This document shows, piece by piece, positions 871-42,741 of a stretch of 64,000 bases of DNA; position 1 is the first letter of the stretch; the number at the start of each line of letters is the position of its first letter. Location of the stretch: the NCBI GenBank assembly GCA_037043015.1, contig CM073328.1, positions 14,667,495 through 14,731,494 of the forward strand. Reading direction: 5' to 3'. The translations under genes and the position numbers were made by a program. This stretch comes from Bryum argenteum (Eukaryota > Streptophyta > Bryopsida > Bryales > Bryaceae). The notes under the pieces were generated by a model. That model did no database searches, was not told the DNA's origin, and was given only the letters and a program-made list of their open reading frames with translations.

Positions 871-3261
871 TATTTAAAAGTTACATGTGGACTTTAGAGG
901 GAGCTTTAGAAGGGACATAGGAGATGCTCTAGGAATTGGTGCTATCGACTATCGAGCTAACTTCTCTACTTGGGGACAATGTCAAAATGTAACTAATGTT
1001 ACTTTATACTATTGTTGCATGCCATGTTGGATTGTATTATTGTAACACTAATTGCAACTGAAGTTGTGAAGTTGTGAATCCATCATATTGGAAATTTCAA
1101 TACAATAAGGTCCTTTATATATTAAAAATGAGAAGCCTTCGACCAAACTCCACTTGGGTCATGGTACATAATTGAGAAGCCATGGCCTTTAGATGTGGTG
1201 TAAAGTGAGAGAAGGCCAAAGACTCCCATGTGGAACTTTTTGTAAAATGAGCTTAAAATATACTAAATGATTGGTTATGGTTTGTTTTCCCAATGGCCCT
1301 TTGGATTTTTAGTTAGGCCTACCTCATTGAGGTAAATGTAACTACAATTCCGGAAGGCCCTCAAAAAAAGCAAATTTTGTGCCAACAAGGCAAAAAGTGC
1401 TTCCCATGTCATTTTTAGCTCCCTTTTTTCCATGGATTAAAATTTGCTCGTGTAAAGCCTCACTTCATTGGATTCTCAAATCCTACGCCTCTCATTAGTT
1501 GATATCCTTCCCCTCGTGACTTCTCAACTCTAATGAAAGAGGGCCTAAATTATACATTCATAACATATGGTATACCATACTCTCTACCTAGTCATGACCT
1601 GGCCCTCAGAGTCATGTTGATTTTAAGAAGCAATTATTGCGGAAGATGTTCTTTAAAACCTTATCATCAGTTACAAAAGTTGCACCGCTTACAGTTTCTA
1701 AATATAATATACTGTATATAAAAATGAGGTTAGTGGGGTGGTAATGAGTATGTAATAATAAGTAGTGTAGCTGCTTATGAATTTCGGACAAAGGTTTGCA
1801 GGATATTTAATTAAATTATGTTTTAAATTTAGACACACCAGTAAAAAAAAAATTTAAGAGTTTTGGCATAGTAGTCAATGGGTCGGTATACTTGAAATAA
1901 AAACGTTGATTTTACAATTTAAATGTAAATTTGACTGAATATATCTCAAGATCCGCAGAGTTCGATTCAATAAAACTTTTTTATGGGGACTAATTGGATG
2001 GCTATGAACAAGATCTTATTGTTGAATTTTGCAAAAGCGAATTTAAGAAATAACTGTTCAATGTTTTCAGAACGGAGTGCTTGGAGGTCATTGTGGACCA
2101 AATAGTGATCAAAAATTTTAAAATGCTCGTTCAAAACTAATCTTACTTTGGGATCATGAGATTTTGGGAATTTAGCCAACTACTTTAACTCCAAATGCTC
2201 CAGCTCTATACAAGGTTGTCTTGTGCGACAAACTGGACACGAGGTCGAACTTGGCATGTCAAACAGACAACAGACCCTTGGTTTGAGAATATACCATATT
2301 CCTAAAATATACTTAAAATATTTTAGAATATGCCCACATATTCTTGGATATTCAAGCATATTTCATCCATATTGTCTCACGTACCAGACACTTGACGAAC
2401 ACGACGAATACGATGAACACGACAACTCGATAGACATTGCGGAAGATGTGTCAAAGAAGACAACCCCGGCTCCATAGTGCCCTCCACATGGCCATATCCG
2501 AAATCCATGGACAATTTTATTTTTTAAAATTTGATTTCGACAAATCTAGCCATAGAATTTTGTTTATAACTGTCTAATTAGTCTACAACTCTACATACCA
2601 ATTTTTGTCATATTTCAAATTTTCATTGCGTCGATCTTAAGATATATTGAGTCAAAGTTTCAATACTTGTTAAGATATATTGAGTCAAAGTTTCAATATT
2701 TGTGAAAACAAAATCAAACACTGCCACATTATGACCGTTTGAAGCATAAGGGGTTCATTTTGGCTGAAATTGATAAGCACCTACACTAAAGAATATACAT
2801 GGACTACATTTATTGATTACTTTAACTTGCATTATGTGCCTACACACCCTCCATATTTAGCATGGATAGAATCCAATATACAGTAGAGAGTTAATGTTGA
2901 TTGTAAAATTGTAAATAGTGTCAAGTTGAAAAATTCCTCATAACCCTTAAAGTTGCAAGGGGCCATATTTTGCCCATTTAGACTTTGGTCAATCGGTGCA
3001 TTGGACGGATTTCTAATACCTTTCCAACAAGACCATTTATGCTTGCAAAATTCCTTACACATTAGGAGTCATTCACTCTTAACCTCTAGATGCCCCTACC
3101 TATTTTTAGCCAAAACACATTTTCAAAAAATGTATTATAGATGAAAATGAATGTAATGTATTCAGATCTCAACCATACAAACTTATGTTAGACTCATTGC
3201 AGATCAAGGGGACCAAAATTTAAGTCATGAACCCTCATAAATTGGGACATCGTAGAAGTAT
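871..3261. other. AT-rich intergenic DNA, no convincing gene
   Basis: No open frame here has recognisable protein character. Fragments of a dispersed repeat are present near 1010-1090 and 1560-1640 ('atatggtataccata'), related to 9120-9330 and 29990-30150. A ~34-bp direct duplication ('gatatattgagtcaaagttt') occurs at about 2637-2703. Confidence 0.5.
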
Positions 3262-3370
3262 CACTACTAAAAAAAAGAATCATGAAATTTCATCATTTGC
3301 ATTGTTGATTTTTGCTGGTCTCTTCATTTATTCATACTTCACCATTCTCTGCAACATGTGGACAACTTAG
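3262..3370 (+). pseudogene. Cassette 1 gene A: remnant of last exon
   Basis: Translated on the plus strand, the segment ends in a hydrophobic stretch followed by 'YSYFTILCNMW' and a stop at 3368-3370. It aligns with the last membrane segment of gene A in cassette 2 ('YSYSVILCGKW') and cassette 3 ('ISYFVILCNKW'). I see no upstream A exon in the preceding 3 kb, so only the 3' end of this copy survives. The stop lies 33 nt before the ATG of its partner B. Confidence 0.7.
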
Positions 3371-3759
3371 AATTGGGACGAGGGCATTCGATAGCTAAGC
3401 AACATGATAACCACGGTGATTAATACAATCAGCGATATATTGTGTAACAAAGAGGGAACACAGGGAGTACTGTATATATATAGGGTACTCCAGAAAAAAC
3501 TTCCACCTCACAAGAAGTACGTTATCAAGGTGGACCCAAATTCAACCTGTTGCGAATACTGGTGTGCTGCTGTCAGTGCTGGCCGCTCACTAAATCCAAT
3601 CCATGTTCCAAATGTCAGGCCCTGTTTTAGTACTCTTTCCGCGAACCGCGTAATGAAAAGAAAGACGATTTTGCCCCGATCGCTTGCGTCTTTTCCTTCC
3701 CGCTCGCGTATTTTCCTTTCTGATACACTTCAGCACGTCTATCGTCCAATAACAGTATA

Positions 3760-4019: not shown

Positions 4020-4529
4020 TGCGGCCAATGCTTTGACGTTAAGTGTATCGACGCCGCCACCTGCAACCCCTAATCCTCTTCGTATTGTCATCCCTTGCGG
4101 AGTGTACTACAGCAAGTCCGATCCCGCCTTCGACTTCGGTGGAGCTGCCATCAGCGGCACGGCGAGCTGCAGAATGTAGGCGAGAACGACATCATGTACA
4201 AGCACGTGTCGTGCAAGTATGGTAACCACAACATGGCGTTTCAAGTGGATGCGGGGTCGGCGCCGTTTTGGTTGTCTTTCACGGTGACCTACGTGGAAGA
4301 ACGTGGTGACATCGAGAGTGTGGAGATCGAGCACAACGGCAAGGAGTTTTTGGAGCTCGCTAAGCACAACTTGGGGGCCAACTCGTTGCTGATCAACATG
4401 TCGGCGCAGACATTCAACGGTCCTTCTTTCATCAAGGCCACAACCAAGCTAAACAAACACTTCGTTGTGGCAGAGGACGCGATCCTTGAGGGATTTGAGC
4501 CCGGCAAGGTATACGAGAGCAAGGTGTAG
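4020..4529 (+). pseudogene. Captured expansin fragment, left arm
   Basis: Translation in three frames gives successive pieces of an expansin. 'QCFDVKC' corresponds to the cysteine-bearing region of the N-terminal barrel. 'DPAFDFGGAAISGT' matches the end of that domain. A long frame ending at 4529 reads 'CKYGNHNMAFQVDAGSAP' through to 'EPGKVYESKV', which matches the C-terminal expansin carbohydrate-binding module. Expansins loosen cell walls, but here the signal peptide and N-terminal part are absent and at least two frame changes occur, so this is a broken copy carried as transposon cargo. The subclass (A, B or like) is uncertain; the spacing looks most like beta-expansin. Confidence 0.75.
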
Positions 4530-5601: not shown

Positions 5602-6606
5602 GTCCGAGACCCCATGCTATCGGGCAAACTCTAGACGATAATACTCTCTGTCTGAAAAGCTAGCACTCAAAAATCTTTCATTATCGAGACCACAAGTTGC
5701 AATGTACTTTGTGAAGATTGCACGCTAGTTCTTCAACTACACCTTGCTCTCGTATACCTTGCCGGGCTCAAATCCCTCAAGGATCGCGTCCTCTGCCACA
5801 ACGAAGTGTTTGTTTAGCTTGGTTGTGGCCTTGATGAAAGAAGGACCGTTGAATGTCTGCGCCGACATGTTGATCAGCAACGAGTTGGCCCCCAAGTTGT
5901 GCTTAGCGAGCTCCAAAAACTCCTTGCCGTTGTGCTCGATCTCCACACTCTCGATGTCACCACGTTCTTCCACGTAGGTCACCGTGAAAGACAACCAAAA
6001 CGGCGCCGACCCCGCATCCACTTGAAACGCCATGTTGTGGTTACCATACTTGCACGACACGCGCTTGTACATGATGTCGTTCTCGCCTACATTCTGCAGC
6101 TCGCCGTGCCGCTGATGGCAGCTCCACCGAAGTCGAAGGCGGGATCGGACTTGCTGTAGTACACTCCGCAAGGGATGACAATACGAAGAGGATTAGGGGT
6201 TGCAGGTGGCGGCGTCGATACACTTAACGTCAAAGCATTGGCCGCACTCTAGCCCTTCCTGAAATATCGCTTCGTTTCCCGCCAATACGGTGTGCACGAG
6301 AGGTTCTAGGTATTGTGAGGTTTGAGGTATCGGTTACGAAGAGGTTTGAGGTATCGAAAAGGTTTGAGGTATCGGTTACGAAGAGGTTTGAGGTATCGGT
6401 TACCAAGGGGTTTGAGGTATCGGTTACCGATACTGTTATTGGACGATAGACGTGCTGAAGTGTATCGGAAAGGAAAAGACGCGAGCGGGAAGGAAAAGAC
6501 GCAAGCGATCGGGGCAAAATCGTCTTTCTTTTCATTACGCGGTTCGCGGAAAGAGTACTAAAACAGGGCCTGACATTTGGAACATGGATTGGATTTAGTG
6601 AGCGGC
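5602..6606 (-). repeat. Right arm of the Mutator-like palindrome
   Basis: Reverse complement of the left arm from the conserved tail through the expansin fragment to the terminal repeat. The two C-terminal expansin frames differ by one residue out of about 144 (His versus Arg in the 'MYK' context). This implies recent duplication or ongoing conversion between arms. Confidence 0.85.
5737..6246 (-). pseudogene. Captured expansin fragment, right arm
   Basis: Mirror copy of the fragment in the left arm on the opposite strand. It has the same frame breaks, the same C-terminal carbohydrate-binding-module frame, and the same stop followed by the same 3' tail. Because both copies share the same lesions, the expansin piece was already broken when the palindrome formed. 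Confidence 0.75.
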
Positions 6607-12879: not shown

Positions 12880-14605
12880 ATGCAGATGAGTAATCCAACT
12901 GCTCTTCCCGAGAATCCTCCTCGACCCCCCGCAAAACCGACGCAACGCTCTGCTGTTGTAGATCATCTCCGCGCTTCTGCAGCCGGACTCGGAGCTGCAG
13001 CACGGCGACCGGATGCAATACCTCAAGTTAGAGAAAAACTCCGTGCTTTTGCGGCTAAACTCCGGACCACTGTAGCTGCACGCCGTGTTCGAACTCTTCT
13101 AGGCTCATTCCAAGGTGATCAACCAGAAGCTGACCAACCTGTAGTTCACGGATCTGGAAGTAACGTCGAATCCAAAGGTGCCCCTGTAGACGGACCAAAG
13201 GCTGGTGCTGCCGCCCGACTCGACGATGTTGCAGGCCGACTGGACGCTGTTGCAGGCCGACTGGATGCTGTTGCAGTCCGACTCGAACATGCGTTCATAG
13301 AGTCCCTGGACGCTGCTGCACGCCCGTTGTTGGCTGCGGAAACCCTACTCCTCGCTGCTGCATCCCAAATTGAGGACGAAGCATTCGTTCTCACAGCTGA
13401 TGCTGCAGTCGTTATTCGAGCTGCTGCAGACAAAGTCAAAGCTACTGTATCCCGACTTCCTTCAGCTAGCGAATTCCGCGACTGTGCAGTCAAACTGTCC
13501 GATGCTGCACGTGCACTCCCCGGACAAGAACTCTCTGATGCTGCAGACGAACTCCGCCGTGTTGTAGGCGAATACCCCATACCTCCAGCTCCGTCCGGCG
13601 AACAGCCGACTGCTGCAGGCAAGTGGGATGCTGCTGTACTCCAACTCCGCTTTCTTGCTTACGAACTTCAGGATGTAGTAAACGAAGTTAAAAGTGTTAG
13701 GCTTACTTTGACCGAGGCAGATGCAGATATAGTAGAACTTCGTCTTGTCGAACAAATTCGAAATCTTAGAGGTGACATTCTGGTCCAACTTTGTGGAGGT
13801 TATCCACCTACAGCATTTACACAGATTAGTAACCTCTTAGACCTTGAAAGGGATCCAAGGCTCAAAAAGGCGCAAGAAGTGTGGCTTCAGAAAGAGAAGG
13901 ACTTAAGCGGGAAGGTTGTGCGTAGAGAAGCTGCAAGTGCTGATGTGAGGACACAGATCTATAACATAATTGGATGGTATGCGGTGTACTTAGGAGTTGT
14001 GCTATCAGCTGTGACTCAGTTGACACAAACATCCTCTTCCTCCTCACAGACATCCTCCTTACTGTGTGGGAAGTGGTGGTTCCCATTCATATTAACAGTG
14101 GTTGGCACGGTCATCACCATTATTGGATTGATTTACAAGTTCAATTCTCTTGATTCCTTGGATGACACAATCCATTCAGACAGGAAGATCTCAGCGGTAA
14201 ATATATATCTACACTTATTGAGTTTTTTCTTGCCTTCTATAATTTGTAAGACTTCATGATCTTGTTAGCATTTCCCTAACCTGGAGGTTCGTGTGTTTCT
14301 AATTTGATTGTGGAATCCGATATGAAATCAAGCATACAACTTGGTTTCAAGTTGCTAACTCTGTTATAAATTGCAACATGTAGGAATTTCAACAAAGGAT
14401 ACTCAGGCTTGAGCAAAACGGCTTGGACTTCGATTTCACAAAAGACGTTGATAACAAGTCAACTAAGGATATTGCCAAAAAACCTTGGAAGGAATATGGT
14501 TTGGTGATTGTTGCATTGATTGTTCTTGCAGCATTGTTCTCATATTCTTACTCCGTCATTCTTTGCGGCAAGTGGAAAATCCAGCAGAGGGAGTGGGAAA
14601 TCTGA
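12880..14605 (+). CDS. Cassette 2 gene A: Ala-rich membrane protein, unknown family
   Basis: Two exons, 12880-14196 and 14384-14605, with a GT-AG intron (tcagcg|gtaaat ... catgtag|gaattt), give about 512 residues. Residues 1 to about 250 are rich in Ala, Arg and Leu, with repeated amphipathic 'AADxLR..A..L'-like units. These suggest helical bundles, and there is no signal peptide. A conserved block follows around 'TEADADIVELR', then 'ASADVRTQIYNIIGWYAVYL'. Three hydrophobic segments are predicted at about residues 364-383, 404-424 and 477-499, with a short charged C-terminal tail. The same exon structure and C-terminal half recur in cassettes 3 and 4. Gene B starts 77 nt after the stop. The start codon is the first ATG before the Ala-rich repeats. 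I do not recognise the function; a membrane-anchored scaffold is only a guess. Confidence 0.7.
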
Positions 14606-14682
14606 TCCTGCTAGTAGGATATCAAACTCTTCAACCTACCGTTTAATAAAACAAGATTTTCATCGTTGATAGCCAGACAACA

Positions 14683-15110
14683 ATGAAGACCAAGGTGACC
14701 AATAAAACTCATGACAGTATCCTTTTGAAAGAGGGAACACAGGGAGTGTACAGGAAACTCAAAGAGCTCAAATCCAATGAGGAGTACGTTATCACGGTGG
14801 ACCCAAATGCGACTTATCGTGAATACTGGTGTGCTGCGAAAGATGATCATCCCCACCCAATGATCCTTAGCTCCGACGATTGTCAAGACAACGATTCAAT
14901 CGAAATATATTATGTTGGAGGAACGTACAAGTGGAGAAAATCCACGGAGGCGCCTAAGAAGTGGTTTGGCGGTGTTCTGAAAGAGAAGTGGAACGCATTC
15001 TGGAAGAGAGGTAATTTACAGACTTCTCGCCTTTGGATTCTCTTTCTGAGTCTATGTGTTGATCACAGTCGGTTGTTTTCTTTTCAGATTCAGGTAGTGG
15101 TTCCACTTGA
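14683..15110 (+). CDS. Cassette 2 gene B: small conserved protein, unknown function
   Basis: Exon 1 (14683-15010) plus a very short exon 2 (15088-15110) give about 116 residues. The conserved core runs from 'TNKTHDSILLKEGTQGVYR' through 'VDPNATYREYWCAAKDD' and 'LSSDDCQD' to 'GGTYKW'. The pattern suggests a compact beta-rich domain with conserved Cys residues. There is no signal peptide or membrane segment. The intron position matches cassettes 1, 3 and 4 (after a codon's first base, before a Gly/Ser tail). Related short domains may exist as unnamed families in other plants; I cannot name one with confidence. Its tight linkage to gene A points to shared expression or joint function. Confidence 0.75.
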
Positions 15111-20079: not shown

Positions 20080-20300
20080 AAAAGATTGAATTTAGGATTT
20101 ATAGTAGGATTTTTTTCCTACACTAAATCCTACTTTATAATAATTTTTGAAATCTTTGTTGGATTTATAGGGTTTAGAATAGGATCTTTGTTATCCTATA
20201 ATAAATCTTATATTTTTGATAACCTTCGTTGAAATTTTGTAAACTTTATATGATTTATGATAGGATCTTCATCATCCTATCATAAATCCTACTTTTTTAG
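20080..20300. repeat. Three degenerate hairpin repeats
   Basis: Three successive ~70-bp units each read like 'gatttatgataggatc' followed shortly by its inverse 'atcctatcataaatc', so each unit can fold on itself. They lie just upstream of the Helitron gene and could be part of its 5' regulatory region. Confidence 0.6.
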
Positions 20301-20359
20301 TGTCTTTTTAGACAATGGCACATGCTTTGTCTTGTCTACCATTGATAATTTTCTAGATG

Positions 20360-23300
20360 TCAATGTTGATAGTGTTGGATCAATGTGCATCCAATGTCCA
20401 AAATGTTTGGCATTTCGTTTTAAAAAAGAAAAAAATACCATTTGTTGTTACAATGGCAAAATTGCCAATGAACATGTTAATCACCCAATCGTCCATCCAA
20501 TGCTCAATGAGCTTTATATGGGCACTACACCTAAATCTCGAGAGTTTATTAAATATATTCAAAGTATAATCAAGCTTTTGCATTTACGAGTATGAGAAGT
20601 AAGTTTCAATCTAGCCAAGTTGAAGGTAGAGGGGTATATACTTTTCGTGTAAACGGAGAATTATGCCACCACATTGGAAATTTACAACCCGATTTAGACC
20701 AAGGTGCTAAATTTGCACAAATTTATTTCTTGGATGATGGTTTACAAACGAATCGTCGTATGGAGATTTTTGATGATCTTCATCGTGATACTCTTAATAA
20801 CATTCAAGAAGTTTTAGAATCCGTAAATGCATTAGTTCGAGGTTTTAAGTCTTCGCGTGATGTTCTTCAAAGGGGATCAAACATGGGACTTCGTATCTCC
20901 GGTGAAGTTCTTTCCGAGAACATCCCCGTCGATATAATCGCCAAGTAGTTCCGTTCTTTGCTATTGTTCTTGACGAACAAGACATGAATTTAGGTAGAGA
21001 TATTATTCTTCACCAACATGGTGGAAATTTACTACGAATAAAAGAAATTCACCCAAATAAGCACGACTTTATCCTATCCTTTGTTATTTCCGGAGGGACA
21101 ATGTGGATGGTCACCAACTTTTAAAGCAAATCTTTGGAGTGACTTTAAAGTCATATGTCCAATATTTGCTTCAAAAGCGACCGAATCTAATGTACTACAT
21201 AGGGTCGGTAGATTATTCCAAAGAATATGTGGTAGATCAATATTTACGTGTAGAACATGAAAATTTGTTATTCATTAGACAACATCAAAATGAACTTCGT
21301 GCAGAATGCTATCAGGGGATTGTAGATGCTTTGCAGGAGGACAATAGAGCACGCATTGGGCGTCGCATTGTCTTACCCGCAACATTTATTGGCTCCCCTC
21401 GATACATGCAAAAACTTTTTCATGATAGTATGGTTTTGGTTAGAGTTTTAGGAAAACCCGATTTGTTTGTGACAATGACGTGTAATCCGACCTGGCCTGA
21501 GATTCTTAATGAGCTTGAACCAAGTCAAAGTCCTCCAGATCGTCCAGATGTTGTTGTACGTGTTTTTGAACTTAAATTAAAAACTTTGATGGATGAGATT
21601 ACCAAGAAGAATGTCATGGGAGAGACAATTGCTTTTTGTTACACTATTGAGTTTCAAAAACGTGGTCTTCCTCATGCACACATTCTTCTTTGGTTAAAAG
21701 ACAAGGTCAATGACTCACACCTTATAGATAGAATAGTATGTCTTTGAGATTCCCGATTTAGATAGACAACCTCAATTGTATGCCGCTAGCTTGCCAAACA
21801 TATGATGCATGGACCTTGTGGTTTGGACAATCCCAATTGTCCATGCATGGAAGACAATAGTAGATGTACAAAAACTATCCTATGCAAGTTCGAGATACTA
21901 CCGAGGTAGATGGTGATGGTCATGTTTTATACCGTCGTCGAAACCAAGGTCGATATGTCGAGAAACGTGTACATGGACAAATTGTTCGCTTAGACAATCG
22001 ATGGGTTGTACCATACAATCCATATTTGATAGGTCGATTTAATTGTCACATTAATGTGGAAATTTGTAGTTCGGTAAAAACAATCAAATACCTCCACAAG
22101 TATATTTTTTTTTAAGGTCCGGATCGTGGTGTTGTAGAAACAGATGAAGTTGTAGATGAGATTAAAGATTTCTTGGAAGGTCGTTATGTGGCTGCCCAAG
22201 AAGCATGTTGGAGACTTTTTGGTTTTGAAACTAACAATAAGAGTCATAGTATTTGTCGTTTACCCGTTCACCTTCCCCGGTCAACAATATGTTACTTTTG
22301 AGGAGGCAACATCTTTGCAAACGGTGATTGATCAAAATGCTGAGACTAAACTCACTAAGTTTTTTGAGCTCAATCGCCACATTCGTGCCTTGATTGCTTC
22401 TGGCAATCAAGGCAATCATATGCTTCTTCGTTACATGGATCTTCCACTCCATTACAAGTGGGATGTGAAGAAAAACATGTGGGAAAGAAGACTACGTAAT
22501 ATTAAAGTTTTTGGTAGGATAAATATGGTTCCCATGGGTACCGAAGTATTTTACTTACGTTTGTTGTTGACTCATGTTGAGGCACCAACTTCATTTGATG
22601 ACCTACTTTGTTTTAATGGTATTGTGCATTTAACGTACAAAGCCGCTTGTATTGCAAGAGGACTTTTACATGATGATATTGAGTGGGAAAATTGTCTACA
22701 AGAGGCAACTCTCATTGCGTTGCCTAAGCAAATTCGGCGGTTGTTTGCAACACTTCTTGTGTTTGGACAACCACTAGATCCTCTTAGTTTATTAAGGAGT
22801 CATCTTGATGCTATGTCTGATGATTGGCGCAATGATCAAAATCGCTATTGCAAAGCGATTTTGTCCATTGAAGAATATTTGTCATCATCAGATAAACATC
22901 TTACTGATTTTTTAATATCGAAGAATTGAATGAGTTTGGTTATCCAAACATTGTTGATGTTGGTAGTGATACCAATGACAATATTGATTTTGATAACCAA
23001 AACATTACTTTTCTAGAAGAGGATGTAGGTAGACTCAACGAAGAACAAAACATTGTTTTTAATGCAAAGGACCTCTGCTGTTTTAAATTCTGATTCTTCA
23101 AATAGGCTTTTCTTTTTAGATGGTCCTGGTGCTACAGGTAAGACTTTTTTGTATAACACCATATTAGGTTATCTTCGTGGTCGTAATGTCAAGTGTATGG
23201 CAATGGCAACAAATGGAATTGCCGCATGCCTTTTGAATGAAGGGCGAACGGCACATTCATCTCTTGCTATTCCTTTACAGTTGCACGATGCATCAATTTG

Positions 23301-24377
23301 CAACATTAGTGCCCAATCTACATTAAGTCAAAGCTTACGTGAAGTACAATTGATTGTACTTGATGAAGCTTGTGCTGGACATCGTTTTATGTATGAAGCT
23401 ATAGATAGATCTTTGCGAGATATACGCGGTATAGACAGTCCAAATGGTGGTGTTGTAGTTTTATATGGTGGTGATTTTCGCCAAACTTTGCCTGTAGTTG
23501 TACGTGGAGGTCGCAAGCAAACTGTTGAGGCTTGCTTGCGACATTCATATTTATTTCCACTGATGCAACATTTTCATCTGACCACTAACATGCGTTTGCA
23601 AAGTCAACCGGACTTTCAACGATTTTTGCTAGATATTGGTGAAGGCAAAACCGGTCCAAAGGTAGATTTACCGCCCGAATTAGTTGCTCCTGGAAATTCT
23701 TTAGATGGTCTCATTGATGCTATTTTTGATGATCCGGTTGATTTTTCTGAACGTGTCATTTTGGTCGCTTTTGAAATGATGATGCTCAAGAAATCAACCG
23801 AAAAATTACCGATCGTTTACCCGGTGATGTGCATCAATGTTTTAGTGCTGACTTTGTTCACGAGAATGATGAACATGCTCATCATTATCCCGTAGAGTTT
23901 TTGAATTCTTTACAATTGAGCGGTTTGCCTCCTCACCAATTAGATCTTAAATGTGGTCAATATTTGATGTTGCTAAGGAACTTGAATCCAGCAAAAGGTT
24001 TGTGCAATGGTAGTCGTTTGCGTCTTTTGCAAGTGTCTTCCAGTGTGTTGTTGTGCAAAATTGTAGAAGGACGCTATCGTAGCCAAGAGGTGTTGATTCC
24101 TAGAATCACCCATCATTGCAATGATAGCCGCTTGCCATTCACACTTTGCCGGAAACAATTTCCTGTCACTGGTGCTTTTGCCATGACAATTAACAAATCG
24201 CAGGGCCAATCATATGATAGAGTCGGCATTTATCTTCGTAATGAAGTATTTAGCCATGGTCAATTATATGTGGCATTGTCTCGTGGTAGACATCCTGCAA
24301 ACATTAAGGTTGCCAATGACAACAATGAAGCCGTGAGAACGGTGAAAAATGTTGTTTATCATGAGGTTTTTACATGA
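20360..24377 (+). pseudogene. Helitron Rep/PIF1-like helicase, frameshifted
   Basis: The encoded protein would nick, transfer and unwind DNA for rolling-circle transposition. Pieces occur in family order: an N-terminal Cys-containing region ('CIQCPKCLAFRFKKE'), the Helitron-like N domain with 'GVYTFRVNGELCHHIG', the HUH nuclease motif 'QKRGLPHAHILLWL', and the tyrosine motif region 'KYLHKYIF'. A PIF1-type helicase follows, with Walker A 'GPGATGKTFLYN', 'LDEACAGH', 'GDFRQTLPVV' and the C-terminal 'NKSQGQSYDRVGIYL'. At least five frame changes or stops (near 20595, 20948, 21747, 22115, 22929 and 23850) break it, so it cannot encode one product. Intact plant copies are usually over 1,300 residues; the pieces sum to roughly that. 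Confidence 0.9.
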
Positions 24378-37272: not shown

Positions 37273-39634
37273 ATGGGTGCAGGGCAGTCGACCCCTCAGG
37301 CTACTGAAGATGAACGCCGTGCTTCTGCGGTAGGTCAACTCCAAGCTGCTGCTGCTGAACTTCAAGCTGCAGGTGATCGACTGTCCGATGCTGCAAGCCA
37401 AGCATCCATTGCTAAGATCCAACTTCGCGCTGCTGCGGACAAACTCCGCACTGCTGCTCCAGTCCCACCCCCTGCGCCAGTCCCACCCCCTGCGCCAGTC
37501 CCACCCCCTGCTCCAGTCCCACCCCCTGCTCCAGTCCCACCCCCTGCTCCAGTCCCACCCCCTGCTCCAGTCCCACCCCCTGCTCCAGTCCCACCAGCTG
37601 CTCCACCCCCTGCTTCAGATCCACTCCCTTTCCTAGATCAACGCCGACTCAGAACTGTTGCACACCAACTCGAAGCTCGTGTAACCACATCCGGAGCTGC
37701 TGCTGCAGACCTGCTCGTCTCTGGGGACTCGCTACGCACTGCTGCAGCCTCGCTCCGCAACGCTGCAAACTTCCTATTCGATGCTGCCCGAGGAATTAAA
37801 GATGTTGCATACCCTCTCCCAGCAACTATTGACGATGTAGGAGCTGCTGCAGGCCTTCTCCAAGATACTGTAAGTCGACTGAGCCGACTTCCATCAGGAC
37901 AAGAACTCATCGCCTGTGCAGATCAACTCTCCGCTTGTGCAAGCCAATTGGATGCGGGTGCAGGCCAACAGGCCGCTCCTGTAGCCCCACCCCCGGTTGC
38001 TCCTGCAGCCCCGCCCCCCGGTGCTCCTGCAGCCCCGCCCCCCGGTGCTCCTGCAGCCCCGCCCCCCGGTGCTCCTGCAGCCCCGCCCCCCGGTGCTCCT
38101 GCAGCCCCGCCCCCCGGTGCTCCTGCAGCCCCACCCCCCGGTGCTCCTGCAGCCCCACCCCCCGGTGCTCCTGCAGCCCCACCCCCCGGTGCTCCTGCAG
38201 CCCCACCCCCGGTGCTCCTGCAGCCCCACCCCCGGTGCTCCTGCAGCCCCACCCCCGGTGCTCCTGCAGCCCCACCCCCCGGTGCTCCTGCAGCCCCACC
38301 CCCCGGTGCTCCTGCAGCCCCACCCCCCGGTGCTCCTGCAGCCCCACCCCCCGGTGCTCCTGCAGCCCCACCCCCCGGTGCTCCTGCAGCCCCACCCCCC
38401 GGTGCTCCTGCAGCCCCACCCCCGGTGCTCCTGCAGCCCCACCCCCGGTGCTCCTGCAGCCCCACCCCCCGGTGCTCCTGCAGCCCCACCCCCCGGTGCT
38501 CCTGCAGCCCCACCCCCCGGTGCTCCTGCAGACAAACTCCGCCTTGCCGCAGGGGAACTGCTCCAGGCTCTCGACGTACGTCCTACTGCTCCAGATCAAC
38601 ACGGTGCTGCTCCTGCGCAACGCTGGGACTTTTTTGTTAGAAGTGTTTCCTCTCTTGTAGCTCAACTTCAAAAGGATGCGAAAGAGATTCGACAAGTTAG
38701 GCATAGTCTGACGGAGGGAGATACCAATATAGCAGAGCTTTGTTCTGCTGAAAAAATTCTTCAAGATATTAGACAGTGGCTTGAGATCTTAATTCATGGA
38801 GATTCTCCACCTATAGCTTTGACATTTGTAAATAATTTGTTAGATGTTGACAAGGATCCAAGGCTCAAAAAGGCACTTGAGGACTGGTCTGCGAGAGAGG
38901 CAGATTTGAGTAGGAAGCTTGCTCGCAGAGAAGGTGCAAGTGCTGACGTGAGGAACCAAATCTATAACATACTTGGGTGGTGGGCGGTATACTTAGGAGT
39001 TGTGCTAACAGCTGTGACACAATTGACACAAAATAGTGACAAAGTGCCGGTGTGCGGGAAAGTTTGGGTCCCAATTGTTTTGACAGGTTTCGGCACGTTT
39101 GTCATCATCTTTGGGTTGGTCTTTAAGTTCATGATCCTCAATTCCTTGGAGGTCACAATTCAATCTGAAAGACAAACTTTAAAGGTAAGTACTTCTGTGC
39201 ACTTCTTGGTTTTTTGCTTGCTTTCTTCGATTAGTTTGTAATTTTGTGGAGGACTTCATGATTCGTTAGGTTTTCTTTTGTTGTAGTTACAGGTAGTTCA
39301 TGTACATATTTTTATAACTATGTGTAGACTATAACTGAATTTTGTGACCGAAATTTGAATTGATCATACAACCTTCTTTAGAATCTGCTAACTTGGTGTT
39401 ACATACTGCTTGTAGGAACTCCAAAAAAGGATACTCAAAATTCAAGAGAAAGGCTTGGGGTTTGACTTCAAAATAGATGTTAATAACAAGTCCCCGAAGA
39501 TTCTTGCGAAACACTTTTGGAATCAATATGCATTAGTATTTTTGGCGTTACTTTCCCTTACGACATTATTCATTATTTCTTACTTTGTCATCCTTTGCAA
39601 TAAGTGGAAAGCCTCGTTCAAGGCTGAAAGCTAG
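37273..39634 (+). CDS. Cassette 3 gene A: frameshifted in a GC-rich minisatellite
   Basis: Paralogue of cassette 2 gene A. Exon 1 (37273-39184) and exon 2 (about 39417-39634) share the intron position and acceptor context. The N-terminal half has Ala-rich amphipathic repeats ('AADKLRTAA'), a Pro-Ala-Pro-Val array of 18-bp units (about 37456-37605), a second helical block, and then an array of 8-residue 'GAPAAPPP' units (about 37985-38530). The conserved C-terminal half has three predicted membrane spans and ends 'FVILCNKW...'. Five array units are 23 bp, not 24, so the frame entering the array is not the frame leaving it. The reading is therefore broken unless there is splicing within the array, an assembly error, or allelic variation. 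The stop is 5 nt before the ATG of gene B. Confidence 0.6.
37456..37605 (+). repeat. 18-bp tandem repeat encoding Pro-rich array
   Basis: Units of 'gctccagtcccaccccct' or 'gcgccagtc...' encode 'APVPPP' in the frame of gene A. Length is a multiple of three, so the frame is kept. Confidence 0.9.
37985..38530 (+). repeat. 24/23-bp GC-rich minisatellite in gene A
   Basis: About 22 copies of 'gctcctgcagccccacccccc' followed by 'ggt', with early units having 'ccccgcc'. Most units have six C before 'ggt'. Three consecutive units (about 38205-38275) and two later ones (about 38415-38460) have five, so the net change is minus five bases. All six frames remain largely open across it, which yields several misleading long frames on both strands. 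Confidence 0.9.
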
Positions 39635-39639
39635 GCACC

Positions 39640-40132
39640 ATGACAACCAAGGTGATCAATAAAACCAGTGGCACACTCATTCTGAAAGAAGGAACACAGG
39701 GAGTATATAGAGTAATCGGTAAGCTCAATTCCGGATGCCATCACGATATCAAAGTTGACCCAAACTCAACTTACCGTGAATACTGGTGTGCTGCGAAGGA
39801 CAATGACCCCAATTATACCGTCCTTAGTTCCGATGACTGCCAGGACTATAGAATAATCGAAATTTTCTGTGAAGAAGGAACTTATTTTTCTGTGAAGAAG
39901 TGCCCGATCAAGACCACTGAGGCATCGGGTTCTGGTGAGGCGCGTAAGAAGGTCCCTGCAGCTGTTGCCTGGGTGAAGGCATTTTTCAGGGGAGGTAAGT
40001 ACCCACATCACACCAAATCGCTCTGTATGGTCCGACTTCCTCAAACAAGTCTCTTCGTATGTGGATTCTCTTTCAGCGTTTTTAAGTTGATCACATACGA
40101 TTGTCTTACCTTCGGTTTCAGGTGCTGGTTGA
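39640..40132 (+). CDS. Cassette 3 gene B: small conserved protein, unknown function
   Basis: Exon 1 (39640-39994) and a tiny exon 2 (40122-40132, ending TGA) give about 121 residues. The core is 'INKTSGTLILKEGTQGVYR', 'VDPNSTYREYWCAAKDND' and 'LSSDDCQD', followed by a Lys/Ala-rich tail. The start context 'gcaccATGA' is favourable. Intron boundaries 'ggag|gtaagt' and 'tttcag|gtgctgg' match cassettes 1 and 2. The frame is intact, and this is probably the best-preserved copy with cassette 2. It begins only five nucleotides after the stop of gene A and in a different frame, so it cannot be a simple readthrough product. No membrane segment or signal peptide is seen. Confidence 0.75.
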
Positions 40133-40869: not shown

Positions 40870-42236
40870 TTCTTGTAGCTTTTCTTGGGAGGTTGCCCGA
40901 GGTGCCGCGGACCCGCTCGTCGTTGCTAGTGACCCGCTCAGAGATGCGGCAACCTTTCTCTGCACTGCTGCAGACCATACTGAGTATTATGTTGCTGAGT
41001 GCGTCCCCTCTGCCGTTGCAGGCAGTATAGATGCTGATGCAAGCTAACTCCGTGCCTGTGCCGACCAACTGTCCGCTACTGCAGGGTTGATCCCAGGTTC
41101 TGATGCAGACCCACTCAGAAAATCACTCACCTCTGCTGCAGACGAGCTCCGCCGTGTTTGAGGCGAACACCGCACTGCTCCACCTGGCCAACATCGCACT
41201 GCACGCTGCTGTACTCCAATTGCGCTCTCTTGTTTACGAACTTCAATATGATGGAGACGAGATTCAAAAGTTAGTCATAGCTTGACCGAGGCAGATGCCG
41301 ATATCGTACAAATTCATCACGTTGAACAAATTGTTCAAGATGTTAGAGGTCGGTTTTTGTCTCAACTTTGTGATGGAATTGCGAGAGAAAATTACAGGTT
41401 TCCACCTAAAGACTGTGAAGAGTCGGCATCTACAGCGTTGACACGTAAGAACAACCTGCTGATATTGATAACGATCCAAGGCTCAAGAAAGCGAGGGAAG
41501 AGTGGCTTCGAAGAGAATTGGATTTGAGTAGGATTATTATATACCAGGAAGGTAGAAGTGCTGATGTGAGGAACCAAATCTATAACCTAACTGGGTGGAA
41601 TGCAGTGTACTTAGGAGTTCTGCTGTCTATTGTGACTCAGTTGGCAAAAAATAGTGACAAAGAACCAATGTGTGGTGTATCTTGGGTCCCAATTTGTTTG
41701 ACAATAATTGGTATGTTTGTCATCATTGGTGGAGTGATTTTTAAGTTCATGAATCTCTTCATCATGTTGAAGTACTGAATTGAAGATGAGACACTGGCTA
41801 TGAAGGTAAATATTCCTGTACTTTCTCATTGGTTTTCTACTTGCTGATTGATCTTGCTACATTTTTGTAGGAATTCATGACCATGCTAGCATCTTCTTGT
41901 CACATTTGGAGGCAGCTCATGTATCTTTGAATAGAGTGTAATACTAATATTTGAGCTTATTACAGAAATCTTTGTCGAAAAATGTTAACTTGATATGCAG
42001 GTGTATCAAGACCTGATGTGCAAACTTAAACATAAGGGCCTGTGGTTTGATATCACGAAAGAATTTAGAGCTATTGGCATTAGAAAGTTTACGAAGTCAT
42101 ATGTATACAGAGTGACATAGTCGGAATACATTTCTATCAATTGGTGATTTTGGCCATGATTGCTCCTGCAATTTTGTTCATAATAACGTACGTTGTCATC
42201 CTCTGCGATAAGTGGAGAATTCGGCATTGGGACTAG
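40870..42236 (+). pseudogene. Cassette 4 gene A: decayed copy
   Basis: Homology runs from the Ala-rich repeats ('ADPLRDAATFLCTAAD') through 'LTEADADIVQI' to 'ADVRNQIYNLTGWNAVYLGV' and the second membrane segment. A further piece at 42001-42236 matches the last exon ('FIITYVVILCDKW'). In-frame stops (near 41044, 41161 and 41776) and frame changes throughout rule out a full product. The Pro-rich array of cassette 3 is absent, so that array is specific to copy 3. Confidence 0.8.
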
Positions 42237-42270: not shown

Positions 42271-42741
42271 ATGATAATCAAGTTGATCAATAAAACTGGT
42301 CGAACACTCGTTCTGAAAGAGGGAACACAGGGAGTATGGAGTACAATCACTTGGGCGCTCTAAACGGCAGGAGTCACGAAATCAAAGCTGACTCAAACTC
42401 AACTTATCGTGTGCTGCTAAGGACACTGATGCTTATGCAATCATCCTCAGTTCCCGATTACTGCCATGACAAGGAAGACATCGAAATTTTCTAGAACAGA
42501 CGAGAAGAGATCTTTCGTAACCCGTAGATCCCTCCTCGGCCGCCTGGAAAGGAAGGCTTTGGTGGTTTAATGGTGTCATATCTCAAGAAAAATATCGTAC
42601 ATCACTTCAAATCGCTCTGTATGATCCGACTTTCTCGAACAAGTCTTCTCGTATGTAAATCCTCTATCTGCTTTTTTGAGTTAAATACAGATGATTGTCA
42701 TCTTTCTAGTTTCAGGTGATAATTCCAATCGAATGCTGTAA
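42271..42741 (+). pseudogene. Cassette 4 gene B: decayed copy
   Basis: Starts with ATG and 'INKTGRTLVLKEGTQGVW', then an early stop. The 'TYREYWCAA' segment has lost several bases ('TYR' joined to 'CAAKD'), and frame changes follow. A last exon remnant (about 42716-42741) follows 'ctagtttcag'. The A-stop to B-start gap is 34 nt, with the conserved string 'gttgatagctaggcaac' just before the ATG. Confidence 0.8.

Follow-up and report, generated by a model that had tools for sequence, protein, structure and literature searches.

Nuclear genes of land plants are, to our knowledge, taken as monocistronic, with few proven exceptions. The Drosophila stoned and Snapin loci are reported to be bicistronic, with a first cistron lacking in-frame AUG codons and a second cistron that depends on scanning (Wall et al. 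2005). Bicistronic loci of green algae are described as having a short ORF 1 (medians of 357 and 291 nt) and AUG depletion before ORF 2 (medians of 0.49 and 0.48 of the expected value; PMC11892635). A plant nuclear bicistron, CDC26-TTM3, carries a first ORF of 65 aa and has been linked to nonsense-mediated decay (NMD) (Lorenzo-Orts 2019, via PMC11291117), and some Arabidopsis readthrough transcripts are reported to place neighbouring ORFs on one RNA, with intergenic splicing and with the second ORF rarely translated (PMC9768141).

The window analysed here, a stretch of 64,000 nucleotides of the Bryum argenteum genome, contains four cassettes in which a gene that we call A is followed by a second gene, B; all cassette features lie on the + strand and are given in window coordinates. 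In cassette 3, the stop codon of A (TAG, 39632-39634) and the ATG of B (39640), which lies in a different frame, are separated by an intercistronic gap of only 5 nt (GCACC, 39635-39639), exactly as the initial annotation had reported. The conserved C-terminal part of A exon 1 (38534-39184) is followed by a GT-AG intron (39185-39415, 3 ATG in 231 nt) and by exon 2 (39416-39634), which encodes no Met; together, the conserved part of exon 1 and exon 2 contain a single Met in 289 codons. B is made of exon 1 (39640-39994), matching the DUF7748 profile (PF24928, E = 4.1e-26), an intron (39995-40121) and exon 2 (40122-40132, including the stop at 40130-40132), the last two read from the sequence. B therefore has its own intron 3' of the A stop, as had been proposed when a plain dicistronic message was put forward as an NMD candidate, the distance from this stop to the B exon junction being, from the sequence, 360 nt in cassette 3 and 405 nt in cassette 2. 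The earlier description of the cassette 3 A gene held for its stop and for the B start, but the ORF that begins at ATG 37273 (455 aa by ORF reading) ends at 38640 and is out of frame with the C-terminal part. A repeat scan detected in exon 1 an array of 24-nt C-rich repeats (37990-38540, ends approximate) in which five of the 22 spacings are of 23 nt and shift the frame. This frame break could reflect an assembly error within a run of C, or else be a real break or hypervariable frame switch.

Cassette 2 consists of A exon 1 (12880-14196, 439 codons with Met at codons 1 and 3 only), an A intron (14197-14383, 3 ATG in 187 nt), A exon 2 (14384-14605, ending with a TGA stop and without Met), a gap of 77 nt devoid of ATG and with one AATAAA inside (14606-14682), and B exon 1 (14683-15010, DUF7748, E = 2.4e-29). 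In cassette 4, A (41461-42236) has accumulated stops and frameshifts; 118 codons of its exon 1, read through one stop, contain 5 Met, of which 4 precede that stop. B (42271-42491) is split over two frames. Of A, cassette 1 retains just the terminal part (a remnant of exon 2 delimited by eye, 3240-3370, start approximate), followed by a broken B (3404-3571). The four A-B cassettes initially listed thus all display the adjacency, but two of them, cassettes 1 and 4, have decayed. For cassettes 1, 4 and 2, the reported gaps of 33, 34 and 77 nt were correct (A stop and B ATG at 3368-3370 and 3404, 42234-42236 and 42271, and 14603-14605 and 14683, respectively), and the conserved string noticed before the B ATG reads gttgatagctaggcaacATG in cassette 4, is altered in cassettes 1 and 2 and is more altered in cassette 3. 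Beside broken B pieces, the window also holds two inverted, near-identical ORFs for an expansin C-terminal domain (4095-4529 on the + strand and 5737-6171 on the - strand), an Expansin_C Pfam match being found within the window, which, with the introns and the genome size, points to the DNA of a plant nucleus. Further along, at 20257-24377, lie ORFs that resemble a fragmented Helitron replicase/helicase.

B is a DUF7748 protein according to its Pfam profile. Profile searches with A gave no convincing Pfam match and matched no solved structure. By eye, the A proteins of the window have an Ala-rich N-terminal part and a hydrophobic C-terminal part, and we read the hydrophobic stretches as those of a putative membrane protein. 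The matches listed in a literature search included no paper on DUF7748 and no report of an A-B family.

We searched the whole genome to which the window belongs (258.8 Mb) and obtained 82 matches to the DUF7748 profile and, for A, 30 and 31 matches with two queries and 42 and 41 with two further ones. On the same strand and at most 1.3 kb downstream, 12 of the 31 A matches are followed by a B; for the other 19, the nearest B was never within 1.3 kb, in any arrangement. By our own estimate, based on 82 B matches in 258.8 Mb and made before allowing for whole-pair duplication, the chance of such an adjacency is about 2 in 10,000 per A. Further searches and locus reading added three more pairs (C8:10000, C8:10003 and C7:5567), for a total of 15 A genes with an open conserved region followed by B, distributed over contigs C3, C5, C7, C8, C10 and C11. 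The initial annotation had let its interpretation hang on whether the adjacency occurs elsewhere, and it does recur, among paralogs of the same genome. The unspliced A-B spacing in the 15 pairs ranges from a 4-nt overlap to 300 nt; the overlap is found at C8:14664, just left of the window, where the TGA of A and the ATG of B share the motif ATGA. The A intron occupies a constant position and is of the GT-AG type in most copies read, with the exceptions of C5:14404 and the damaged C3:26733; no clear acceptor could be seen in C4:21704, C2:17575 and C3:20557. Near-identical A-only copies, with one internal TGA per match, occur at C3:30.49-30.55 Mb (~12.5 kb apart) and on C19, and the B start region of C8:10003 is frame-shifted with respect to its close relative C8:10000.

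B is also found on its own. Inspecting by eye 1.5 kb upstream of the best DUF7748 matches at 32 places, we recognised A exon 2 at 2 of 33 loci, a count that left out the paired loci L001-L003, L006 and L007. The 31 loci without A exon 2 upstream suggest that B can be expressed alone, from its own promoter. DUF7748 genes form clusters at C6:9.27-9.32 Mb and C10:12.29-12.34 Mb, and the loci read there had no recognisable A upstream.

Both genes mostly show lower nonsynonymous than synonymous divergence: dN was lower than dS for A and for B in the five comparisons where both were measured, some of them near saturation. For A, the margin was clear in seven of nine comparisons, the other two being C8:10000/C8:10003 (dN 0.11, dS 0.14) and C3:26705/C3:26707 (dN 0.08, dS 0.07). 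These seven comparisons argue against A being a mere 5' leader of B. We also rejected the idea that A and B form a single fused protein, since the frames differ between copies and the A stops are kept. Across 14 pairs, distances among A sequences and among B sequences were correlated (Pearson 0.54, 1 of 5000 permutations; Spearman 0.36), indicating that A and B tend to duplicate as a unit. A tree of 23 A rows required four changes of B label, two of them forced by well supported branches, and the independent contrasts available for a link between Met content and B are few.

The most conspicuous property of the paired A genes is their shortage of methionine. In the homologous region compared, namely exon 2 (its start placed by eye) and the 108 codons that end exon 1, the 15 paired A genes contain 9 Met among 2680 codons, versus 24 among 1106 codons for six unpaired ones (Mann-Whitney p = 0.0005; Fisher p = 2.6e-7), p-values that are too small because the A rows are related, and with unpaired controls that are few, include two near copies and may be under weaker selection. 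The 15 paired rows include cassette 3 with its frame break, C8:10003 with its damaged B and C5:14404 with an unsure exon 1 end. This comparison excluded sequences that were broken, not fetched or nearly identical to C3:26769 (C3:2352, C5:14398, C2:590, C2:863, C3:26781, the C3:30.49-30.56 Mb and C19 copies, C6:5222, C6:7117, and window cassettes 1 and 4). Adding C3:26733 and C3:26769, both damaged and outside the main test, brings the unpaired count to 29 Met in 1469 codons. Among unpaired genes, three that are open throughout the region, C3:24800, C4:21704 and C6:7727, contain 8, 4 and 5 Met, respectively, and C2:17575 has one; C3:20557, whose B is decayed and which stands outside the main test, has one in 177 codons. 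When all 20 residues were tested, Met alone differed markedly (ratio 0.15, p = 0.001), the next being Glu (p = 0.047). Met is missing along the whole length of A in the paired copies: the longer coding sequences of 12 pairs contain 10 Met in 3587 codons, with none in the 599 internal codons of C8:14664 A and one in 511 for cassette 2 A. The B proteins contain 17 Met in 1239 codons.

This shortage extends to ATG triplets in all frames (4.7 per kb in paired versus 15.1 per kb in unpaired A). The A introns have ATG densities of the same order in both groups (23.0 per kb in paired and 18.9 per kb in unpaired genes), which indicates that AUG is avoided in the spliced RNA. Between the A and B starts, ten spliced pairs contain 63 ATG in 11,552 nt (four of them gap ATGs of C8:16797 placed in a candidate intron). 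The comparison values are 64 ATG for 2,496 nt of intron, 74 for the 4,932 nt lying upstream of A and 51 for 3,000 nt of B sequence. In exon 1, the decayed cassette 4 has 8 ATG over 356 nt; over 348 nt, cassettes 3 and 2 have 2 and 4, and C8:14664 has 2. Relative to synonymous shuffles, paired A genes showed no depletion of ATG in the +1 frame (26 observed, 25.8 expected), versus a strong one in the +2 frame (3 observed, 15.3 expected; 0 of 1000 shuffles); the corresponding values for unpaired genes were 20 versus 18.4 and 6 versus 8.1. Shorter open frames were considered as a cause of the missing +1 depletion, but their length failed to account for it. Out-of-frame ATGs were, overall, fewer in paired than in unpaired A (p = 0.013). 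Some ATGs are kept between the two starts (12 in cassette 3, 16 in cassette 2 and 9 in C8:14664), opening ORFs that end before B, so that ribosomes reaching B in cassettes 3 and 2 would need reinitiation or bypass.

The DNA between the two genes follows a similar rule. Nine of 14 pairs have an ATG-free junction, one being the ATGA overlap, which leaves no gap. The gaps of the other five (C8:16797, C8:10003, C8:10000, C8:8039 and C7:5567) contain 4 to 7 ATG each, and in each of them a candidate GT-AG intron would remove these ATGs, after which the 14 gaps together hold one ATG in 646 nt; these candidates are individually weak, GT and AG being common, with three donors reading GTGAGT or GTAAGT. 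The single leftover, in C8:10003, is likely the B start itself, as it matches that of C8:10000. The 100-nt gap of C5:14404, outside this 14-gap set, breaks the rule, containing, immediately ahead of B, an ATG with TGA as the next triplet. Position -3 is an A at 1 of 12 A starts and at 9 of the 14 B starts (p = 0.005), and a purine at 8 of 12 and 12 of 14, respectively (p = 0.37); the A starts are thus only mildly weaker than the B starts. For two of the 14 pairs, C8:8039 and C7:5567, the open frame of A showed no ATG start.

The initial annotation had called this arrangement operon-like and offered three options: a dicistronic mRNA, alternative splicing selecting A or B, or a B promoter inside A. 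The sequence, which is the side of the question covered here, favours the first, since the Met and ATG shortage is located in A exons, is tied to B and is absent from introns. Such a shortage is expected if ribosomes scan A and unexpected if B has its own downstream cap site or if A is spliced out. We infer, with a probability of about 0.7, that A and B are carried by one bicistronic nuclear mRNA and that B is reached by leaky scanning through A. The capped mRNA would start upstream of A, and the A intron, plus an intercistronic intron in some copies, would be spliced out. Most ribosomes would initiate at the A AUG and produce the Met-poor protein A, while some would bypass this codon, scan an A frame nearly without in-frame AUG and initiate at the B AUG, more often provided with an A at -3. 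Short out-of-frame ORFs within A would be tolerated via reinitiation, which may add to B translation where the A stop touches the B start. Several observations count against this reading: ATGs of the +1 frame are not depleted; 12, 16 and 9 ATGs persist between the two starts of cassette 3, cassette 2 and C8:14664; the C5:14404 gap has an ATG; a purine at -3 is about equally frequent at A and B starts; the A leaders exceed the algal ORF 1s in length; AATAAA occurs in the cassette 2 gap; the unpaired C2:17575 has a single Met; dN and dS are close for A of C8:10000 and C8:10003; two pairs show no A start; and the cassette 3 A is frame-broken in the assembly.

Reinitiation might instead be the main route to B on the same bicistronic mRNA, with ribosomes terminating at the A stop and resuming at the adjacent ATG. 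The ATGA overlap at C8:14664, the gaps of 5 and 14 nt, and a candidate splice at C7:5567 that would put the A stop 6 nt from the B ATG all agree with this route. We nevertheless consider it unlikely, as reinitiation in eukaryotes is rare after ORFs of 200-600 codons and the A-B spacing varies from -4 to 300 nt. In addition, scanning predicts an AUG shortage along A, whereas reinitiation would mainly concern the neighbourhood of the stop, and Met is missing across the entire A. B could also be translated from an mRNA of its own, produced from a promoter or cap site within A or through the joining of an upstream leader to a splice acceptor beside B. The many DUF7748 loci without A exon 2 upstream (31 of the 33 best-matching ones) and the acceptor candidates before B in five pairs speak for this possibility, which we judge quite improbable, because it gives no reason for a Met shortage in A exons that tracks the presence of B and because the C8:14664 overlap leaves no space for an acceptor between the ORFs. 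This same pair, one of the 15, departs from the organisation of trans-spliced operons, in which an acceptor lies between the ORFs before every downstream ORF.

A last explanation would dispense with any translational coupling: the A protein would be poor in Met by nature, copies under relaxed constraint would have lost this trait by chance, and the adjacency would merely be inherited. It draws on the small number of independent contrasts and on the C3:26705 versus C3:26707 comparison, where dN and dS are 0.08 and 0.07. Against it, Met alone among the 20 residues differs strongly, the unpaired C3:24800, C4:21704 and C6:7727 have remained open and yet contain 8, 4 and 5 Met, and most gap DNA is likewise ATG-free, so that we hold this explanation to be very improbable. 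The leaky-scanning reading of a single message accords with two features known from leaky-scanning bicistrons, a short inter-ORF distance and a depletion of in-frame AUG in A that is tied to B. The recurrent A-B unit bears a sequence signature that strongly suggests such a mechanism. With somewhat less assurance, we regard as probable a family of nuclear land-plant operons in which scanning towards B makes Met near-forbidden in A and in which Met returns where B is lost.

If this is true, the amino-acid make-up of one protein would be dictated by its neighbouring gene. The 15 pairs, together with the natural losses of B, offer a ready test of the effect of scanning on coding sequence, and B-dependent Met depletion gives an easy means of screening whole plant genomes for hidden bicistronic loci, which gene annotation may divide in two or record with one of their ORFs missing.

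Compared with the known systems, the A-B pairs share with Drosophila stoned and Snapin, as these are described, the shortage of in-frame AUG in the first cistron, but those are animal loci encoding unrelated proteins, whereas here we find a family of 15 paralogous pairs. Arabidopsis readthrough transcripts likewise have two neighbouring ORFs on one RNA; the portion of that report on which we rely makes no mention of selection on ORF 1. CDC26-TTM3 is, like the proposed A-B unit, a nuclear plant bicistron, for which an NMD link has been reported as a feature; the proteins are different, B being a DUF7748 protein and A lacking a convincing Pfam match in our profile search. The green algal loci, as far as their published description goes, are alike in their short inter-ORF distance and AUG depletion before ORF 2. 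However, the algal ORF 1 is short, whereas A is ~600-1800 nt long and its start only mildly weak; the A leaders, of 0.67-2.1 kb, are longer than the algal ORF 1s reported.
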